29,751 bases of DNA from a virus. A program made the position numbers and the translations under genes. The stretch is from the IMG/VR virus record IMGVR_UViG_3300036791_000914, positions 1-29,751 of that record; one strand, given 5' to 3'. Positions 1 through 27,538 of the stretch are shown one piece after another; position 1 is the stretch's first letter, and each line of letters starts with the position of its first letter. Below the pieces are notes generated by a model that did no database searches, was not told the DNA's origin, and saw nothing but the letters and a program-made list of their open reading frames with translations.

Positions 1-310
1 GCCGAATGATGTCGGCGAGCCGGTCCTCGATCTTCTGCGCGCTGCGCGGCCAGGGGTTTTCTTCGTGCACTGCGTACCGGCAAACCTCCTGATGGTTGAA
101 GCCGTCGAGCTGATAACGCGGCAGCGGGCCACTTCCTACGCCGCGATGCCGAAGGAAGAACATCGGCGCGCCGCAATCGCAGACGCGGCGGTGTACGCTG
201 CTGCGCTGGATGATCATGGCCAGCCGTTCGTCGGCGGTCGAAGGAGGCCGAATGCGTATCAGCCGTTCGTTCTCTTCTTCGACGCCACGCCTGAATAGGT
301 CGTCTTGCAT
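1..310 (-). CDS. Partial protein of unknown function, cut by left edge
   Basis: The frame is open for 103 codons from an ATG at 308-310 down to the window edge, so only the N-terminal part is visible. It begins MQDDLFRRGVEEENERL, has an acidic helical start, a CDC pair near residue 44 and a further Cys near residue 81, and high GC in third codon positions as in the neighbouring phage genes. I do not recognise the family. A plus-strand frame (65-298) overlaps it but looks like a shadow. If the genome is circular, this gene lies upstream of the large terminase in the same direction, so a packaging or early function is possible. No strong ribosome binding site precedes the ATG. Confidence 0.45.
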   Translation of the reverse strand, partial: MQDDLFRRGVEEENERLIRIRPPSTADERLAMIIQRSSVHRRVCDCGAPMFFLRHRGVGSGPLPRYQLDGFNHQEVCRYAVHEENPWPRSAQKIEDRLADIIR

Positions 311-365: not shown

Positions 366-388
366 TTGTCCTAATCTTGTCCATATTT
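366..388 (+). repeat. Left arm-type integrase site repeat
   Basis: TTGTCC at 366-371, five bases, then TTGTCCATATTT at 377-388. The same composite (6 bp, 5 bp gap, 12 bp) recurs in the same orientation at 605-627, on the other side of the tRNA-Leu fragment. Paired direct repeats with an 11-bp period flanking the core resemble arm-type binding sites for the N-terminal domain of a tyrosine integrase. That role is inferred from position. Apart from this repeat and the tRNA fragment, I see nothing else in the non-coding stretch 311-546. Confidence 0.6.
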
Positions 389-470
389 CAATGTGATTCA
401 GTGATACTCCGTGCGATTGCCGGACGAAATATCAATCAGTTAGCGGCTATTTGGCCCACCGAAAACCACC

Positions 471-535
471 TGCACTGGATTTAGGTTCCAGCGCTCGTAA
501 TGGGCGTGAGAGTTCAAGTCTCTCCATCCGCACCA
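471..535 (+). other. attP core: 3' half of tRNA-Leu(UAG)
   Basis: The anticodon arm (stem 475-479 with 487-491, anticodon TAG at 482-484), the variable arm (about 492-507), the T arm (508-512 with 520-524, loop TTCAAGT), the 3' acceptor strand CATCCGC (525-531), discriminator A and CCA (533-535) are all present. The 5' acceptor strand GCGGATG and the D arm are absent: the sequence to the left does not fold with it. It is therefore not a functional tRNA gene. It is the identity segment by which the phage would rebuild a host tRNA-Leu gene after integration. The integrase gene ends 11 bp to the right. Confidence 0.85.
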
Positions 536-546
536 TATAACCCCTT

Positions 547-1683
547 TTATTGCTTATATTTAGAATCAGCCGGCAATTTCGGCCCAATAGCCGGTCCGGC
601 GGCGTTGTCCACAATTTGTCCATATTTTTTTTCTGCAGCCTGGCGCTTTTGCTCTGACTTGGCCTCCAATTCCTCTACCAGGGACCGCGCATCATCCTCC
701 TCTTCGATCAGATACCGCCGGAAGGCTTGCGATATGTGGCCCGTGACACGCCGCGCTTTCCATTCCGAATAGCCCTGGCGCATGAGGTTCGTACCGGCCG
801 TGCGGCGCGTGTCATGAAACAGAATATGCGGCAAGCCGAGGCGCTCGCGGGCTTCCTCAAACGCCGTACGGAAACTCTTGATACAAGCGCCGCGACGCTG
901 GAACACGCACGGCACCGCGGGATCGCGTGCCGCCCATGCCATTTCGAGAAAGGCGCGCATCTCGTCGAATACCGGGATAAAATGCGTCTTACCGTTTTTA
1001 GTGATGCGCTCGCCGTTTGACCAGCCCGGCACCCGGATCAGCCAGGAATCCCAGTCCATCCATTCCCAGCGCAGTTTGAGCAGCTCGCCTTTGCGCACGC
1101 CGGTGTAATAGGCGAAGACCCAGAACAGTTTGGCATGGTCCGGCAATTCGCGCAGGAGCGCGCGGTATACCTCTTCACTGACGATGCCCTGGCGAACGTT
1201 ATCCTCGCGCAATTTGGGAATGCGTACGAGGCGCGGCAGCCGATCCGCCGCTAAACGCAGCGCAGCGGAAATGATCGCCGTCTCGCGGTTGATGGTCGCA
1301 TTCTCGAACGGTTCGCCCTGCTTCGTGCGATCGCCTTGCCGGCTGGTGATATAAGCGATAGCCTCTTTCTTGCCGAACAGACGGGCGTCGGCCATTCCGA
1401 GGCGCGGCCGCAAATAACCGTCGATCCGGCGCTGCGGAGTCACGATGTCGGTCGCGCCCTTGCACCGCAGATGCACCATATATTCGTCAAACAGGTCGCT
1501 CATGGTGAGGGTCCCTGGCGGTGCGCCCCTGATCTCCCTGACCCATTTTTCAAGCTCGGCGTCGGCTTCCTGCTGGCTCAAGGCATGGACGGTTTTGGAT
1601 TCGCCCTGAAAGCGCAATTGCGCGCTATTGGCGCCACGCATGCGCGCTGTGCCCTTGCCGTAAGAGCGCTTGCGTTTGCTCAT
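547..1683 (-). CDS. int: Tyrosine-type site-specific integrase
   Basis: This 378-residue protein catalyses phage integration and, with an excisionase, excision. The catalytic set of the tyrosine recombinase family is visible: Arg197 in TGVRKGELLKLRW, Lys232 in the following beta-hairpin, His290 and Arg293 in FHDTRRTAGTNL, His316 in VTGH and the nucleophile Tyr324 in FRRYLIEEE. The first 60 residues are basic and fit an arm-binding domain; residues 60-160 fit the SAM-like core-binding domain. The C-terminal tail (from about 340) is unusually long and Lys-rich, and its DNA contains an arm-type repeat. The start overlaps the stop of the upstream gene by 4 bp (ATGA). It ends 11 bp from the tRNA-Leu fragment, which is its probable attachment core. 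Confidence 0.95.
   Translation of the reverse strand: MSKRKRSYGKGTARMRGANSAQLRFQGESKTVHALSQQEADAELEKWVREIRGAPPGTLTMSDLFDEYMVHLRCKGATDIVTPQRRIDGYLRPRLGMADARLFGKKEAIAYITSRQGDRTKQGEPFENATINRETAIISAALRLAADRLPRLVRIPKLREDNVRQGIVSEEVYRALLRELPDHAKLFWVFAYYTGVRKGELLKLRWEWMDWDSWLIRVPGWSNGERITKNGKTHFIPVFDEMRAFLEMAWAARDPAVPCVFQRRGACIKSFRTAFEEARERLGLPHILFHDTRRTAGTNLMRQGYSEWKARRVTGHISQAFRRYLIEEEDDARSLVEELEAKSEQKRQAAEKKYGQIVDNAAGPAIGPKLPADSKYKQ
605..627 (+). repeat. Right arm-type integrase site repeat (inside int)
   Basis: TTGTCC at 605-610, five bases, then TTGTCCATATTT at 616-627 match the repeat at 366-388 in sequence, spacing and orientation. This copy lies within the 3' end of the integrase gene and encodes residues near KYGQIVDN of its C-terminal tail, so one stretch of DNA appears to serve both as coding sequence and as a protein-binding site. 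Confidence 0.6.
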
Positions 1684-2192: not shown

Positions 2193-2477
2193 CTAGCTGG
2201 CCCGCTTACTCTCCTGAATGAGCCGTTCCAGATCCTCGATATCGAGCATCGGCCAGCGCGTAAAACGAGCCGCCGTCAATTTCTTCTCGGCAATGAGGTT
2301 GTGAATGGTTCCCTTGCTGACGCCGAGATATTCGGCGGCCTCGTCGATGCTCAATAAGCGCCGCTGGCGGAAACTGCTGCTCGACAGTTCCTCGCGCACA
2401 GCCCGCCGGATGGCATCGTCCACCGTTTCGCGAACTGGCGGCATTTTCTTTACGGCTGCAGACTCGGATATGGCCAT
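2193..2477 (-). CDS. xis: Excisionase / MerR-like helix-turn-helix DNA-binding protein
   Basis: 94 residues. Residues 40-90 (RRLLSIDEAAEYLGVSKGTI, then a wing and the IEDLERLI helix) match the helix-turn-helix 17 / excisionase-family winged helix: the DEAAEYLGVS recognition element followed by the conserved hydrophobic wing. The first 38 residues are a charged extension. A good ribosome binding site (GGAGG, 4 bp before the ATG) fixes the start. It heads the operon with 1680-2174 and int, the usual place for a recombination directionality factor. It could instead be an AlpA-type transcription activator. Confidence 0.8.
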   Translation of the reverse strand: MAISESAAVKKMPPVRETVDDAIRRAVREELSSSSFRQRRLLSIDEAAEYLGVSKGTIHNLIAEKKLTAARFTRWPMLDIEDLERLIQESKRAS

Positions 2478-3248: not shown

Positions 3249-4133
3249 CTAATGGGCTGCTCCCGCGCCGGCATTTTCGACCGCGGCGCAGACTTCTTCG
3301 TACCGGTCGACCGTAACGTCTTCGGCGCGCTGGAAGCCGAAGCCATTCAAGATTTGGCCGGTGATCTTCTTATCGACACCCTGGCTGAATCCCAGCGCCC
3401 AGATCCGGCTGGCCTGCTTGCCGGTAATGATTCGCTTCTCGCTATTGCCGTTCTGCGCCGAAGCGGGCGGCGTCTCAGATACGGGCGCTTCGCGTTCCCG
3501 CGGCGGCTGTGCGATCGGCGCTTCGGTTCTAGGCATTTCTACCGTCCGCTCGCGTCCGGTCATCTCTTCGGCCGGCGTCGGTGCGTATCCGGCCATTGCG
3601 ATGATCCAGCTAAACGGTCCCTTGAGCGCCTTCGCCTGCGCGCGCGTCTGCGCCATCGACCGGAGCTGGAACAGCGGAACCGGCCGCTCGCCGGTCTGGA
3701 TACGCTTGCGCGACTGCTGATCGTATTCGTAGGTCGGACGGAACGACCAGTTTTCCTCATCGTTCAGGCACATGGCATCGGCGGTGCCAATCACGATCCC
3801 GGATGGAACATGAAATGCTTCCGCCGTACATTCGTACCCGACAACATCGCCGATCTGAACAATACGCGTTTCACGCGTGCGTGGTGTTACGCGATACATC
3901 GCGCCCAGAAAGGCCCACGCTTCGAAGAACAGATGATCGCGCCCACCGAACCGCTGAACCCAATTGTTACGCTTGACGGCCGCGACCAGCGCATCGGCGC
4001 AGAGCCGCGCCTCTGCCACAATCGCTTCCGGCTTCCGCTGCAGGCGCAGGCTAAAGCCGTCGTCGATGTCGGCCAGGGCTTGCGTGATGACGGCGGCGTT
4101 CGCCGGTTCTTGAATGATTTGATGACTCTGCAT
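3249..4133 (-). CDS. Single-strand annealing / recombination-mediator-like phage protein
   Basis: 294 residues. The N-terminal 190 residues carry an arrangement I associate with phage ssDNA-annealing and related recombination proteins: HLFFEAWAFLGAMY (67-80), then GTADAMCLNDEENW, then the signature SMAQTRAQAKAL (159-170) and AGYAPTPAEEM (181-191). Residues 234-294 form a separate C-terminal module (ITGKQASRIWALGFSQG, then FGFQRAEDV and a Tyr-Glu-Glu helix) that is typically fused to RecT/ERF/Rad52-like phage proteins. A Pro/Glu-rich linker (195-232) joins them. The start has a strong site (AAGGAGGT, 9 bp before ATG) and follows the upstream stop directly. A partner exonuclease lies upstream. 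The exact annealase superfamily is uncertain. Confidence 0.65.
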   Translation of the reverse strand: MQSHQIIQEPANAAVITQALADIDDGFSLRLQRKPEAIVAEARLCADALVAAVKRNNWVQRFGGRDHLFFEAWAFLGAMYRVTPRTRETRIVQIGDVVGYECTAEAFHVPSGIVIGTADAMCLNDEENWSFRPTYEYDQQSRKRIQTGERPVPLFQLRSMAQTRAQAKALKGPFSWIIAMAGYAPTPAEEMTGRERTVEMPRTEAPIAQPPREREAPVSETPPASAQNGNSEKRIITGKQASRIWALGFSQGVDKKITGQILNGFGFQRAEDVTVDRYEEVCAAVENAGAGAAH

Positions 4134-4826
4134 TTATGAAGACCTCCTTAAAGTGGCAATGTTCGATTCGTTGTATACGCGTACGCCGGGAATCGCAAAT
4201 GCTCCGCGCATAGAACGCGCCAGCGCATTAATCGCCGGCATGTTCGCCATAACCAGGTTCGACAGTTCCGGCCGCGACGAGACGTACTTAATCAGCGCCG
4301 AAAGATCCGTCACTTCGGCCTTCCAGGTTTCGCGAGCCGTGAAGCCGGTCTGCTTCGGCGCAGGCGCAAGTACCACCGGACGCCGGACCAGCGGCGCTTC
4401 GACCAGCGTTTGTACTTCGTCTGCCGACGCGCCCAGCGCTTCCGCGGCTTCGATTTCACGTTCACGCTCCAAAGCAGCTTCGCGTTCGGCTTCTTCGCGC
4501 AACCGGCGTTCTTCGGCCAGGCGGATACGCTGCTGCTCCTGCGTGTATGCCGAAAGCTTCGCCTTAATGATCTGTTCGGCCTTGTCAAGCGGCGCGCAAA
4601 CGTTTTTCTTCTGCGTCAGCGCTTCCTTATGCGCCGCGTGTGCCTTGCTGATGATCGGATCGAAAATCTTCGCGGCTTCGCTCTGTAGTCCGGCGATCGC
4701 CTGCAGATGCCCGGCGGCCATCTCGACGGATGGCTGGTCGATTATCTCTACGTGGTCAGCTAACTCGATCCAATACGCCGTTTCGCGGGACAGCTGTTTC
4801 ATCTCTACTTGCATCAATGCATCCAT
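4134..4826 (-). CDS. Coiled-coil phage protein of the recombination block
   Basis: 230 residues. Residues 30-135 form a long, highly charged coiled coil (IRLAEERRLREEAEREAA and neighbouring heptads). The C-terminal 65 residues hold the pattern TWKAEVTDLSALIKYV, then N-M-P-A-I-N-x-L-A-R and I-P-G-V-R, recurrent in small phage proteins encoded beside exonuclease/annealase pairs. Its molecular role is not known to me; an accessory or inhibitor role around host nuclease is only suggested by context. It has its own promoter/operator region (4851-4882) immediately upstream, and the annealase-like gene follows without a gap. Confidence 0.75.
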   Translation of the reverse strand: MDALMQVEMKQLSRETAYWIELADHVEIIDQPSVEMAAGHLQAIAGLQSEAAKIFDPIISKAHAAHKEALTQKKNVCAPLDKAEQIIKAKLSAYTQEQQRIRLAEERRLREEAEREAALEREREIEAAEALGASADEVQTLVEAPLVRRPVVLAPAPKQTGFTARETWKAEVTDLSALIKYVSSRPELSNLVMANMPAINALARSMRGAFAIPGVRVYNESNIATLRRSS

Positions 4827-11967: not shown

Positions 11968-12720
11968 ATGGATGACATCACGGCTAAAGCGCTGGCCTTG
12001 CTGCATCGCCCATTGCGTATCGTGGATGTCGGCGCACAGTCACTAGGCGCACATGCGTACTCATCTCTGGTGGGGCTTTGCGAGCTGGAAATTATCGGCT
12101 TCGATCCGTTGATAGACCGCCTGCGCGAACGTGCCGAAAACGAACCGGCACCGAACACTACACTGTTGCCGTATGCAATCGGTGATGGCGCGCTGCACAC
12201 GTTTTATGTAAACAGCAATGATGCCAATTCGTCTCTGTTTGCGCTCAATCTGCCCTGGCTGCGGCTGTTTCGCCGGCCTCGGGAAGTGCACACGGTTCGT
12301 ACCGAACAGATCGAGACGCATCGCCTGGATGACGTACTGCCGCCGGAACCCATCGATTTTTTAAAGCTGGACTTGGAAGGCGGCGAGCTGATGGCGCTGC
12401 GTGGCGCGAAGCGCACGCTTTCAGAAACCGCGGTACTGCATTGCGAAGTGTCATTCAGCCAAAGCCTTGTCGCGCAGCCGCTCTTTTCCGATGTCGACCC
12501 GTTTATCCGTTTTCACGGCTTCCAGCTCATTGATTTACTGCTTGGCCCTCACTATAGCTTTGTGGTTCCGTCGGGGCAACAATCGCCCGACTGCCTGCGC
12601 TGGGCCGACGCCGTATACTTCCGACAGAGCGATGACGCCGCAGTGAAAGCCGTACAAGCTCTCATCGCGGCAGCGGTATATGGCAAGCCGACGCTCGCCG
12701 AATATCTGCTGAGTTCCTAG
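11968..12720 (+). CDS. FkbM-family SAM-dependent methyltransferase
   Basis: 250 residues. Rossmann methyltransferase motifs are in order: RIVDVGAQ (motif I, about 17-24), EIIGFDP (40-46, with the acidic residue that binds SAM ribose), LLPYAIGDG, then the FkbM signature PIDFLKLDLEGGELMALRGA (about 127-146) and HCEVSF. FkbM enzymes usually O-methylate sugars or polyketides. It runs against the tail operon: its start is 17 bp from the start of the GNAT-like gene, and its stop overlaps the next virion gene's stop by 4 bp. This is the position of a 'moron' gene, suggesting acquisition and separate expression. Modification of a surface glycan, changing phage adsorption, is a plausible but unproven role. 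Confidence 0.85.
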   Translation: MDDITAKALALLHRPLRIVDVGAQSLGAHAYSSLVGLCELEIIGFDPLIDRLRERAENEPAPNTTLLPYAIGDGALHTFYVNSNDANSSLFALNLPWLRLFRRPREVHTVRTEQIETHRLDDVLPPEPIDFLKLDLEGGELMALRGAKRTLSETAVLHCEVSFSQSLVAQPLFSDVDPFIRFHGFQLIDLLLGPHYSFVVPSGQQSPDCLRWADAVYFRQSDDAAVKAVQALIAAAVYGKPTLAEYLLSS

Positions 12721-13199: not shown

Positions 13200-14432
13200 C
13201 TAAGAAATCGCGTGCCCGTTGACCAAGACTGGTGACACGTTGACAAGGCCCACTAGCCCACCATTCACGCTTAAATTGCTTGAAGAAACAGATACGCCGC
13301 TATCTATCGCATTGCCGCCTGTGTCGTAGACAAGGCCATGCCCTGCTGTGACGGTGCCGCCACCAAACATTTGGAACATGGCTCCAGCCCCCTGCCTTGC
13401 GGTAGAGCGGATCTGGTCATAGTCGATATTGCCGCGCTGCAGTGGAGCGATAACGGTGAACGTTGTGGTGGGTGCCTCAGCTCCTGTGGTCACAGTCAGC
13501 GTGCGTGCGCCAAGTGTTGCCCCGCTTGCAATGGTCAGGGCAACTGTGAGACTGGTGGCTGAAGAGACAGCAATGGTGCCTACTGAAACCCCGGTGCCGC
13601 TGACAGAGACAGCAGTGGTGCCGCCTGCAAAGTGCGTGCCTGTTCCAGTGACGGTGACGGTGACAGTTTGCCCCGGCTGGCCGCTGCTAGGCGCGAGCGA
13701 TATGCTGGCGGCGGCAGCCAGCGGCCCGGAGAATAAAGCACGGCGCGGAGTTGCGAAAAAACTGTAGGGAGCTTGGGCAATCCGCTGAAATTCAGCCGGA
13801 CCGAGAACCCGGTCCCACATGTAGGCATAAACAAGAATGGAGCCATTGTCCAAATACTCGCCGGCGCCGGATGCCCCGACCACCAAGTCGCCATTCGAAA
13901 ACGTTTGTGCGCTACTAGCCGTTCCATCGGCGACACCATTTAAATAGAAGTTCGCATTCGTACCGTCGTAGCTAACGCCAGCATGATAGAAAATATTGTT
14001 GGCCCAGGTTGTGGTGCTTGATCCTACCTGGGCGACACCGCTTTTGAGCAAATTGATTTTCCCGTTGAGAATGCGCAGCTCAATGCCGGAACCGCCGAAG
14101 CCCATCCAGACAGAGTTGGCGGTAGTCGCAATCGGCACCATGAGCAGGCAGGCTGCACTGAAGGCCTGAATGCTGTAGCGGCCATTTCCAAAATTGCTAT
14201 AGCAGCCGCCACCGCTAAACTGTTTGCCGAGGCCGAACTGAGTCGAGACAGCGAGCGGCGTGGCGGTAACAACAGATCCGACAGTTCCGGCCGCTAAATC
14301 GAATGGCGGCCCGGCGCCTTCATTGAGCGGCACTGCGATTCGCAGATTACGCGCAAGCGGGTGGCCTCGATTCACCGCCGTTCCCGCGGGCGGCTTCAGA
14401 ACCCCTGTATTCGCTTTGCTGGAGATGAGCAC
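13200..14432 (-). CDS. Fibre-type protein with LamG-like and IPT/TIG domains
   Basis: 410 residues from a GTG placed directly after the upstream stop. Residues 25-220 form a concanavalin/LamG-like lectin domain (FYHAGVSYDGTNANFYLNGV at 148-167, then VVGASGAGEYLDNGSILVYA and MWDRVLGPAEFQRI). Residues 242-330 form one IPT/TIG immunoglobulin-like domain (SLAPSSGQPGQTVTVTVTGT and SATSLTVALTIASGATLGAR), of a type very abundant in acidobacterial secreted proteins. The last 80 residues carry a VYDTGGNAIDSGVSV segment typical of phage tail proteins. It probably binds surface carbohydrate. The TIG domain suggests exchange with host genes. Confidence 0.8.
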   Translation of the reverse strand: MLISSKANTGVLKPPAGTAVNRGHPLARNLRIAVPLNEGAGPPFDLAAGTVGSVVTATPLAVSTQFGLGKQFSGGGCYSNFGNGRYSIQAFSAACLLMVPIATTANSVWMGFGGSGIELRILNGKINLLKSGVAQVGSSTTTWANNIFYHAGVSYDGTNANFYLNGVADGTASSAQTFSNGDLVVGASGAGEYLDNGSILVYAYMWDRVLGPAEFQRIAQAPYSFFATPRRALFSGPLAAAASISLAPSSGQPGQTVTVTVTGTGTHFAGGTTAVSVSGTGVSVGTIAVSSATSLTVALTIASGATLGARTLTVTTGAEAPTTTFTVIAPLQRGNIDYDQIRSTARQGAGAMFQMFGGGTVTAGHGLVYDTGGNAIDSGVSVSSSNLSVNGGLVGLVNVSPVLVNGHAIS

Positions 14433-16897: not shown

Positions 16898-17242
16898 ATG
16901 GTTAGCATTCGGGAACTGCGCCACCGATTGGCATTAAGTCAGCAGGCGTTCGCAACACGTCTTGGAATCTCAATTCGTGGCCTAGCTAATTACGAAGCCA
17001 CCGAGGACCGGTCTATTCCGATCCACTTAAACTTGTTGCTCTGGGCGATCGCGGGCCGCGCCGGTTTTGGAGATCTGGCAAAAGATTTCGGGCTTGATTT
17101 CTGTTACGCGCTCGACTTAGAACAAGTGTTGAAAGAAGCGACAGTACCGTCTTCCTGGAAATATCAATGGCCCGACACGAATAACAATCGCGTGGTTACC
17201 ATATTCGTCTCAGTTGATAAAATCTCAGAAATTCCCGCTTAG
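16898..17242 (+). CDS. Xre-type helix-turn-helix regulator inside structural operon
   Basis: 114 residues. Residues 3-40 form an HTH-3 domain (SIRELRHRLALSQQAFATRL, then G-I-S-I-R-G-L-A-N-Y-E). The C-terminal part is unlike a cI peptidase domain: no Ser/Lys autocleavage site is seen. It runs opposite to the structural genes, head-to-head with the gp10-like gene (starts 18 bp apart) and overlapping the 3' end of the gp4-like gene by 18 bp. A -10-like CATAAT (16877-16882) would give a near-leaderless transcript. It could be a lysogen-expressed repressor or a moron. Third positions are less GC-rich than in the neighbours, consistent with acquisition. Confidence 0.75.
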   Translation: MVSIRELRHRLALSQQAFATRLGISIRGLANYEATEDRSIPIHLNLLLWAIAGRAGFGDLAKDFGLDFCYALDLEQVLKEATVPSSWKYQWPDTNNNRVVTIFVSVDKISEIPA

Positions 17243-24235: not shown

Positions 24236-25497
24236 TGCGGTGTAATCACGGTATTGTTTGCTGTCGGCAGAGTAAACGTTGTTTTGCCGGCGCCCATCAG
24301 GACGTTGCCGGACGCCGTCTTGCGCACCGTAATCGGCCCGTAGTTCTCCGACACCTGCGAAGACACCAGGGAGTCAATCGACGTGCTCGCGGTCGGCCCA
24401 TTCGTTTCGCCTACATTGCCGCGCCAATGACATTCGGCGAGCGTCAGTCCGTTGTCGCCATACGCGAAATACTCGCCGGTTCCGCCCTCGTTCGAATCGA
24501 AGGTATAGCCTTCGATATTGGCGTGATGGATCGTGGCCTGCGCGTTCTTCTTGAAGTACAGCCCAAAGCCGCCGTTTTCGGTGCGGGTGTCGGACAAATG
24601 AAACACCGTGTTCGGCCCGCCCTGCGTAGAGTTGCCGCTGATCAGTTCGACGCCGATTGACTTCACATTGTGATTCAGCGCGATATATCCGTTGCGGTAG
24701 TAATGATCGCCGGTGCCGCCGCCCAGCGCATCGGCAATCGCGATGAACTGCGACGTCGCGCCCACGTAGCCGAGCACCTGATAGTCGGTCATAAATAACG
24801 ACAGATTGCTGCTCTGGCCGCAAGCCGGGGAGCAGATATGCAAATCGTCCGCACCCGAGGTGTAGAAGCCGTACAGTGCGCCGCCGCCGTCAAGTTCCAC
24901 GTGCAACTTATGCCAGGTGTTGACCTCAGAAGAAATCGAATAGATAGCCGCGGTGGTCGCGTAGCCCTGAATCAAAACAGAGTCGAAGATGTTATTCCCG
25001 GCCACCCCAGCTTGCCTCGCCAAAAATAAGATGCTGCGAGGCGGATAGGTCGCGTTCGTCTTCAACCCGATATTTTTGACCGTCGTATAACCACCGCCGG
25101 TAATTTGAAACGCTGCTTGCGGGACAGCTGCGGGCTGTGCAGACGGAGAGTAAACAATGCTTGCGCTCGAATGCATCGACTCGATGGTAGTTTTGGTCGG
25201 AAAAGTAAGGGGGCTTTTCACCAAGTAAGTACAATACTTTTGCGCCGCTGCGCAGGTAAACATCAACCGTGTTCCCTGGTGATTTGTCGCATAGGTGAAT
25301 GCGGAATTGAGAGCCGCTGCGTTGTCCGTGTAGCCGTCGGCCACGGCGCCGAAGTTCTCTACATACACTGCTGCCTCGGCAGCCACTGTTTTGGTCTTGC
25401 GATGGTTGTACCCGTAAACACTCGATACCAGGATGACGACGAAGAGCACCACGGCAGCACGCGACACTACTCGATCAATCGCTTCTCGCTCCACCAT
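24232..25497 (-). CDS. Membrane-anchored or exported pectate-lyase-like beta-helix protein
   Basis: 421 residues. Residues 13-30 (RAAVVLFVVILVSSVYGY) form a signal anchor or uncleaved signal segment. Residues 45-75 (VENFGAVADGYTDNAAALNS) are the entry of the pectate-lyase-3 right-handed beta-helix (F-G-A-x-x-D-G-x-T-D-x-x-x-A-L). The coils that follow repeat N/G-rich rungs (NIEGYTFDSNEGGTGEYFAY). Such helices form phage tailspikes, but those have no signal segment. The AAGGGGAGG site precedes the ATG. The gene overlaps the end of the glycoside-hydrolase-like gene by 23 bp, so the two are made together. A polysaccharide lyase or binding role is likely; the exact substrate is unknown. Confidence 0.8.
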   Translation of the reverse strand: MVEREAIDRVVSRAAVVLFVVILVSSVYGYNHRKTKTVAAEAAVYVENFGAVADGYTDNAAALNSAFTYATNHQGTRLMFTCAAAQKYCTYLVKSPLTFPTKTTIESMHSSASIVYSPSAQPAAVPQAAFQITGGGYTTVKNIGLKTNATYPPRSILFLARQAGVAGNNIFDSVLIQGYATTAAIYSISSEVNTWHKLHVELDGGGALYGFYTSGADDLHICSPACGQSSNLSLFMTDYQVLGYVGATSQFIAIADALGGGTGDHYYRNGYIALNHNVKSIGVELISGNSTQGGPNTVFHLSDTRTENGGFGLYFKKNAQATIHHANIEGYTFDSNEGGTGEYFAYGDNGLTLAECHWRGNVGETNGPTASTSIDSLVSSQVSENYGPITVRKTASGNVLMGAGKTTFTLPTANNTVITPQ

Positions 25498-27538
25498 GGC
25501 CTCCCCTTGCTGTACCAGTCTCGACCAGGATCGGGCTCGTTGAAATCGTTACGCTGCCTCCACTGATCGCATGCACTTTACCGGCAACATCGCGGTATTG
25601 AACGTACTTCGGATCGACCGTCCAGGATTTCGACCCGGAGGTATTCCAAATCGCTTGCGCCGAATAGGTGCCGGCGCGAGCCTCAGGGCTGTTCTCATTA
25701 CAGTCGCAATCCCCGCGGCGTCTTGTTGAACGCGTATAGCCGCAAACGAAGGTCGTCGCGTCATTGACGGTCTGTGCGCAAGGAGCGCTGACTGTTGCGC
25801 CACCGATCCACTGCTCAACTTGCTGGTAAGCCGCTCCGGCAGAATTAAGACCGGCCGAAGTCCAGAGCGTGCCCCAGTCCGCGCTGTCGTAGCTGTACCA
25901 CATCGTGCGCTGCACACCGATAGACTCTTCGAGCAGTAAATGGCGCGCCACCCAGGCGGGCTGGTCAGCGGCGGCAGTACCGCTATTCGCGGCCCAGCTC
26001 GATTCGGTATCCCACAGCGGCAGGCTGCCCAGGCCATTGTTCGTCATCGTGGATTCGAGCAGGTTCACCGCGCCCTGAACCTTCTCCGGCTGCGGGCCGT
26101 TCACCGGGTAGCCGTGAAAAGCTACGCCGCCGATGAAGTTCTTGCCGCCTAGCGCAAGCCACTGGTCGAGCCATGTGGACCCGCAAAACGATGGGCTGGG
26201 ATTACACAGCGCCTGCGTCTCGTAGTTGCCGGTGACACTGGGACTGAGCACCGCCGCATTTGCGTTCGCGCCTCGAATGATCCGGTAGGCATCGTCCACC
26301 ATCGTGACGAGCATCGCCGGATCACCCTTCCAGTAAGAAGGGATGTTGGCCTCGTTCCACATCTCCCAGTAATTGATGCTATTGCCGACATGAGCCACCA
26401 GCGCGGTAATGAACATGTCCCACATACCCAGATTCAGCGGAGCCTCCGCACACGCCCCCGGCGTATAGGCGCCGCTGCAAACAGTCGAGAGCGTTCCTGA
26501 AGACGACGAGCCGTTCGCGCCGGACTGGCTATAGATAAACGTAGTCGAGGACGGCGTGCCCGTTATATAGAAAGTGCCGTTGTAGCTGCTGTCAGCAACC
26601 CCGGCTATGGTCACCTGCGATTGCTGATTGCCGGGCTGCACCGCGTTGTAGTACAAACCGTGCGGAGATGAAGCCGTCACCGTTACTACGCCGGATGACC
26701 GGCTAATTGATGCCAGGGGCACGTTAGCTGCGAGCGCCCAAGTCGGAACACCGCCAAACGTATAAATCGCTTGAGCATTGTTTGTCTTAGCGAGCGCGAT
26801 CAACCGGTCGAGGTTCCCCCAGGTATATTGACCGGCGGCCGGGTTCAGGTCGCGCCACGTGGTGCGGGTATCCCATAGCCGCAGCGTACCGACCGGCATC
26901 GCCGGCCAGGGCGTGCCCCCTAGTAAGTTATGCACCACCACGCCGAAGAAGCTGGCGGCTGAGTTCGGCGTCATCACCGGCGTTGGCGACTGCCGAATCG
27001 TGTATTGCCCGGTTAAGGTGTTGCTGGGCGGGCCGTTCGGATAGACTGCGATGGCTCGCAGCTTGACATCGGACGTGAACGGCAGCGGCGCAACGTAGCG
27101 GGCCGACGTCGTGTCGGGCGCGAGTCCGTTGGTCGTGTAATAGATTCCTGCCCCCTGAGTTGTGCTGGCGATGGTAACGACCTGCGGTCCGGTGTACAGC
27201 GCAGCGGGCGGCGTAAAGGTCGGGTCAGCGGCGGGCACGATAGTGTAAACGGCAGTCAGCACACCGCTGGACTGCCCTGATAGCGAGGCCATGGCTCGCA
27301 ACTTCATCGTCGTCTTGATCTCGATGGGTGCCGTGTACAGCGCGGAGGAAGTCGTAGGCGCGAGTCCGTTGGTTGTGTAGTAGATTGCCGCCCCGGGCGT
27401 CGTGTCGTTAATGCCTATATTCTGCGTTGTCGTGTACGAGCCTTCCGGCTGAGAGAATGTAGGAACGGCTGGAGCTGCGCCGTAGCCAAGCCTGGCCAAG
27501 GCGAACACTGCGATAGCACGACAACCAAAGCTATTCAC
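25475..27538 (-). CDS. Exported clan GH-A glycoside hydrolase with chitobiase-like repeats
   Basis: 687 residues from a GTG (the next codons upstream contain a TAG). Residues 7-24 look like a weak signal peptide ending AAPA. Residues 26-100 and 104-181 are two chitobiase C-terminal-type repeats (AAIYYTTNGLAPTTSSALYT against AGIYYTTNGLAPDTTSARYV). From 195 on follows a TIM barrel of GH39/GH5 type: VGTLRLWDTRTTWRDLNPAA, YWEMWNEANIPSYW with acid/base Glu396, and SLPLWDTESSW with nucleophile Glu512. An insert of about 70 residues (278-350) interrupts the barrel. The C-terminal beta domain holds a short Arg/Cys-rich insertion (about 604-622). It would cleave a polysaccharide outside the cell. Resemblance to acidobacterial enzymes suggests host origin. 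Confidence 0.8.
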   Translation of the reverse strand: MNSFGCRAIAVFALARLGYGAAPAVPTFSQPEGSYTTTQNIGINDTTPGAAIYYTTNGLAPTTSSALYTAPIEIKTTMKLRAMASLSGQSSGVLTAVYTIVPAADPTFTPPAALYTGPQVVTIASTTQGAGIYYTTNGLAPDTTSARYVAPLPFTSDVKLRAIAVYPNGPPSNTLTGQYTIRQSPTPVMTPNSAASFFGVVVHNLLGGTPWPAMPVGTLRLWDTRTTWRDLNPAAGQYTWGNLDRLIALAKTNNAQAIYTFGGVPTWALAANVPLASISRSSGVVTVTASSPHGLYYNAVQPGNQQSQVTIAGVADSSYNGTFYITGTPSSTTFIYSQSGANGSSSSGTLSTVCSGAYTPGACAEAPLNLGMWDMFITALVAHVGNSINYWEMWNEANIPSYWKGDPAMLVTMVDDAYRIIRGANANAAVLSPSVTGNYETQALCNPSPSFCGSTWLDQWLALGGKNFIGGVAFHGYPVNGPQPEKVQGAVNLLESTMTNNGLGSLPLWDTESSWAANSGTAAADQPAWVARHLLLEESIGVQRTMWYSYDSADWGTLWTSAGLNSAGAAYQQVEQWIGGATVSAPCAQTVNDATTFVCGYTRSTRRRGDCDCNENSPEARAGTYSAQAIWNTSGSKSWTVDPKYVQYRDVAGKVHAISGGSVTISTSPILVETGTARGGHGGARSD

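Follow-up and report, generated by a model that had tools for sequence, protein, structure and literature searches.

A predicted lambda-type attachment site at a tRNA-Leu 3' half in an uncultured P22-like phage

The 3' half of a tRNA-Leu gene, with a pair of short repeats on either side of it, raises the question of whether the surrounding phage DNA was integrated in a host chromosome or free when it was sampled. The public record IMGVR_UViG_3300036791_000914, a linear fragment of 29,751 bp, is considered here from end to end (the window). Positions 366-627 are very probably a complete attP that has not recombined, belonging to a temperate P22-like phage, and the layout of the site is that of a lambda-type attP. 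Its features and their neighbours are collected in Table 1.

Table 1. Coordinates of the predicted attP and of adjoining features in the window
Feature	Position	Strand	Basis or remark
P0001, 5' part of phage ORF running off the left end	1..310	-	adjoins attP in G002 too
P-arm pair, predicted integrase arm-type sites, TTGTCC twice, 11 bp apart	366..388	+	copy at 605-627; equivalents in G002, G011, L049
Candidate accessory (Xis-like) repeat TTCAGTGATACTCCGTG, P arm	397..413	+	by eye; putative function
IHF consensus WATCAANNNNTTR, perfect match TATCAATCAGTTA	430..442	+	only perfect match in the window
Inverted partner of the 397..413 repeat, CCCACCGAAAACCACC	455-470		by eye
attP core, tRNA-Leu(UAG) 3' part, from before the anticodon stem to CCA	472..535	+	sequence, relatives
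Anticodon loop, likely 7-bp strand-exchange region	480..486	+	stem inverted repeat; crossover position inferred
Tyrosine integrase, 378 aa, PF00589 catalytic domain, N-terminal beta-beta-beta-alpha domain	547..1683	-	domain search, model
P'-arm pair, predicted arm-type sites	605..627	+	within int 3' end, codons ~353-360
HTH_17 protein, probable excisionase/regulator	2193..2477	-	domain match

Domain searches detect P22-type coat, portal and terminase proteins in the window (PF11651, PF16510 and PF17289, the last being Terminase_6C), and these genes identify it, at the level of sequence, as a fragment of a P22-like temperate podovirus. The portal is about 30% or less identical to the best known phage records among the matches listed. 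P22-like podoviruses share the coat, portal and Terminase_6C types with the window but differ in integrase, and the tRNA targeted by the P22 integrase is not the tRNA-Leu found here. Several other genes were observed. A FkbM-type methyltransferase (11968-12720, + strand; PF05050, 9.5e-17) lies on the opposite strand amid the late structural genes and is possibly a cargo gene. Two ORFs on the - strand, a large one (25475-27538) with chitobiase C-terminal-type and Fn3-associated repeats and another (13200-14432) with a concanavalin A-like lectin domain, are likely to encode tail or surface-binding proteins. A helix-turn-helix ORF (16898-17242, + strand) overlaps late genes on the other strand, its HTH matches being weak and below the cut-off.

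Relatives were found solely via the coat protein (14 relatives) and by integrase alignment. An exact search of viral contigs with the arm pattern and core of the window gave no match, and a search with the integrase as a single sequence yielded one distant match in viral contigs and one in genome contigs. The nearest relative, G002 (IMGVR_UViG_3300036832_000667, 38,428 bp), has a coat protein 97% identical to that of the window; the integrases are 61% identical in amino acids and the tRNA-Leu cores 92% over 75 bp. Beyond the core, G002 also matches positions 1-316 of the window (85% DNA identity, with 83% protein identity for the partial ORF). A second family by integrase alignment, L049-L053, has the same tRNA-Leu(UAG) 3' half, and in G011 a tRNA-Leu(CAA) 3' half, its anticodon read by eye, is surrounded in the same way. 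In two further phages, G003 (L035) and G010 (L034), the integrase is of an unrelated type and the candidate core is a tRNA-Pro-like 3' half that faces the other way from int (anticodon again by eye); G010 is closed by an end repeat of 127 bp. G004 (L037) encodes a different integrase, and CGCGTCCATAT repeats flank a candidate attP at a site not recognised as a tRNA.

The core of the window contains an anticodon stem (475-479 and 487-491, CTGGA/TCCAG), the anticodon TAG at 482-484, a variable arm, a T arm and a CCA end at 535. An earlier note on this DNA had placed the tRNA-Leu(UAG) 3' half at 471-535; the stem, loop, arms and CCA are real, and the start moves to 472, where the block shared with G002 begins. 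The note had also held that the 5' half of the tRNA is absent, and this is borne out, since ARAGORN finds no complete tRNA anywhere in the window. Strand exchange probably takes place in the anticodon loop, because homology starts just upstream of the stem. Across the four cores the tRNA stems show 5 double changes with 98% of cells paired, a value reached in 2 of 500 shuffles; such conservation, in what are only four related sequences, would be expected of a phage half that has to restore a functional tRNA.

Repeated arm-type sequences, as predicted sites, are present on both the P and P' arms. The left-hand repeat is TTGTCCTAATCTTGTCCATATTT and the right-hand one TTGTCCACAATTTGTCCATATTT, identical at 19 of 23 positions. 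Two copies of TTGTCC-N5-TTGTCCATATTT in the same orientation had been described here, and their coordinates and orientation hold. With up to 3 mismatches the pattern has exactly two matches in 29,751 bp, at 366-388 and 605-627, for a chance expectation of 0.02, and two matches occurred in 0 of 100 shuffles. When the flanks were shuffled (n=100), the best 23-nt match never exceeded 17. Since the integrase ORF runs to position 547, stopping 12 bp away from the CCA of the tRNA, its 3' coding end takes in the right-hand repeat, a point absent from the earlier note.

Accessory sites can be proposed between arm and core. Perfect matches to the IHF consensus are expected 0.56 times in the whole window and one is present. 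IHF-like sites with 0-1 mismatch occur in G002, G011 and L049 at a core offset of -43 or -44, as in the window, which gives a predicted bending-protein site at constant offset in four phages. An inverted TCGGTG-type repeat pair between arm and core is clearer in G002 and G011 than at 397-413/455-470 of the window; in all three these repeats could be Xis sites. A 13-nt inverted pair (444-456/581-593, 92% complementary) is roughly symmetrical about the att core; it was dropped as an att element, G002 having no counterpart evident by eye.

The integrase has a PF00589 catalytic domain (2.6e-16), and alignment shows a complete R-K-H-R-H-Y catalytic set (R197, K229/K232, H290, R293, H316, Y324). Its ORF points at the core. 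The core contains neither the stop codon nor the promoter end of int, and the gene is therefore expected to survive integration unbroken. In the structural model residues 11-50 form a beta-beta-beta-alpha fold (pLDDT ~90), and the full-length model is poor beyond the N-terminus. Fold searches with the N-terminal domain gave weak matches: lambda IntDBD (2wcc, Z 3.4), with dsRNA-binding domains scoring equally, and the HPI and P4-like arm-binding domains 3jtz and 3rmp (Z 3.2), among other small folds. The modelled fold is compatible with an arm-binding domain and does not discriminate. Identity between the window and G002, G011 and L049 is 44, 49 and 27% in the N-terminus and 74, 60 and 48% in the catalytic part. 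This lower conservation of the N-terminus fits co-variation of the arm sites with the domain that would read them, without proving it.

All relatives examined at tRNA-Leu carry a tandem pair of repeats, spaced by about 11 bp, on both arms. The sequence of the repeat varies: TTGTCC in the window, TTGGCCAA in G002, CGGGCCAACTCTGGGCC[C/A]AATGTTGTT in G011 and GTCTCGTAATCTTCTCGTAATCC in the L049 family, where 24-nt arms are identical on both sides; in G003/G010 it is of the CTGGGCAGAATTCGGG type. Within a phage, the best 23-nt match between the flanks is 19 for the window, 22 for G011, 23 for the L049 (G291) family and 20 for G003/G010. Between different tRNA-Leu phages the best match is 14-18, with a shuffled maximum of 17. 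The arm pairs of G002 match each other at just 15 of 23 positions because the spacing within the pairs differs by one base (11 vs 12). In these comparisons the arm repeats are phage-specific, alike within a phage and different between phages.

The TTGTCC repeats might have been regulatory operators or other non-arm sites next to a core that is still an attP, and the weakness of the N-terminal fold match leaves some room for this. It is nevertheless improbable, given the strict two-sided pairing in four tRNA-Leu phages, with the arm pairs 238-258 bp apart, and the 11-bp tandem spacing. The divergence of the arms between phages also accompanies a fast-changing integrase N-terminus, and the same architecture has been proposed for Cluster K mycobacteriophages (PMC3203893).

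In those phages (CrimD, Anaya and Adephagia), two pairs of 11-bp arm repeats surround a core that matches the 3' end of the host tmRNA gene, and close relatives differ in arm consensus, which was discussed together with the integrase N-terminus (PMC3203893). The window resembles them in its paired 11-bp arm repeats about a core from the 3' end of an RNA gene and in a consensus that varies among relatives, and with this precedent its attP belongs to an already known kind of site. There are differences: in Cluster K, P3/P4 run opposite to P1/P2 and the attP is 5' of int (PMC3203893), whereas the four repeats of the window are all direct and its attP is 3' of int. The embedding of the P' pair in the int coding sequence is a further difference from Cluster K.

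Phage lambda offers the other comparison. Its int adjoins P', and here too the gene next to P' encodes a tyrosine integrase predicted to be heterobivalent. The logic proposed for the arm, core and accessory sites of the window is that of the lambda attP and its Int-IHF-Xis intasome (PMC4880445): predicted arm-type sites on P and P' arms that flank the core, and a candidate bending site separating arm from core. In contrast to lambda, the core is a tRNA-Leu 3' half, each arm has a symmetrical tandem pair, the P' pair falls within the int coding region, and the arm-site sequences are unrelated.

The claim that the attP is unintegrated is supported by phage DNA to the left of the core, positions 1-316 being as in the circular G002, and by closed and permuted relatives. 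A complete tRNA-Leu with bacterial flanks beside 1-310 was looked for and not found; the DNA there is phage. G002 closes into a circle by an exact 127-bp end repeat. In the second family G289 and G291 are closed by 127-bp repeats, and the G291 junction lies inside G290, so that independent assemblies are circularly permuted. From the circular G002 and this permuted family, the order P-core-P' is that of a circular genome. A core lying between two integrated copies of a tandem (dimeric) prophage would also have phage DNA on both sides, with the same local sequence, and the window alone does not close: comparison of the two ends of the record revealed no end repeat. Its right end (terminase) aligns to G002 4094-4701, so the contig breaks at a distance from att, with about 6.6 kb still needed to complete the circle. 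Tandem prophages are nonetheless very unlikely. G002, G010, G009, G289 and G291 all close via end repeats of 123-127 bp, the att loci of relatives carry no whole tRNA, no host DNA is found at the att site in G002 or the L049-L053 family, and each viral contig carrying the tRNA-Leu core is one of these phages; several assemblies would each need a tandem integration of their own. A decayed prophage edge, at which integration displaced the tRNA 3' end and the left 470 bp are host or island DNA with a repeat due to chance, scarcely deserves credence: displaced tRNA 3' fragments are frequent at island ends and a family search with P0001 gave no match, but circular G002 keeps the left flank and its ORF beside the core, and the arms match across the core in four phages, with the repeat as rare by chance as given above.

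The search for a host gave less. Around Paraburkholderia, 274 genomes from the class and 150 from the phylum were searched, and none contained the core within 3 mismatches. Among phage and plasmid records, tRNA-Leu matches reach at most about 90% over most of the core (Pseudomonas and others). For example, Pseudomonas phage phi297 and the Moraxella Mcat phages have an 85-89% identical tRNA-Leu 3' sequence and, in the stretch compared, no DNA similarity outside it.

For a complete, unrecombined attP the following course of integration can be proposed, in which we infer the protein binding, the exchange in the anticodon loop, the restoration of the tRNA and the host. Integrase N-terminal domains would hold the paired TTGTCC arm sites, IHF would bend the P arm at its consensus site, and the catalytic domains would occupy core sites formed by the anticodon-stem inverted repeat. 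The 64-bp core would recombine with a matching host tRNA-Leu(UAG) gene, strands being swapped in the 7-bp loop, and at the int end (attL) the 3' half carried by the phage would make the tRNA gene complete again.

For this uncultured P22-like phage the site points to a temperate, tRNA-Leu-integrating lifestyle and a non-integrated state, and the tRNA sequence of the core is a clue to the host. Integration cassettes seem to have been swapped among phages with similar coat proteins. The balance tips slightly towards a further idea, that in a set of environmental P22-like phages with similar capsids the arm-site sequence has been switched as a unit, the four half-sites together, with the tRNA-Leu and the IHF position fixed. 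If so, the P' site would be constrained further, as it also encodes the integrase C-terminus, and the arm-switched cassettes would form a natural series for arm-site choice by the integrase N-terminal domain. The arm sites of the four related cassettes are a ready test set for the arm-site specificity of integrases.
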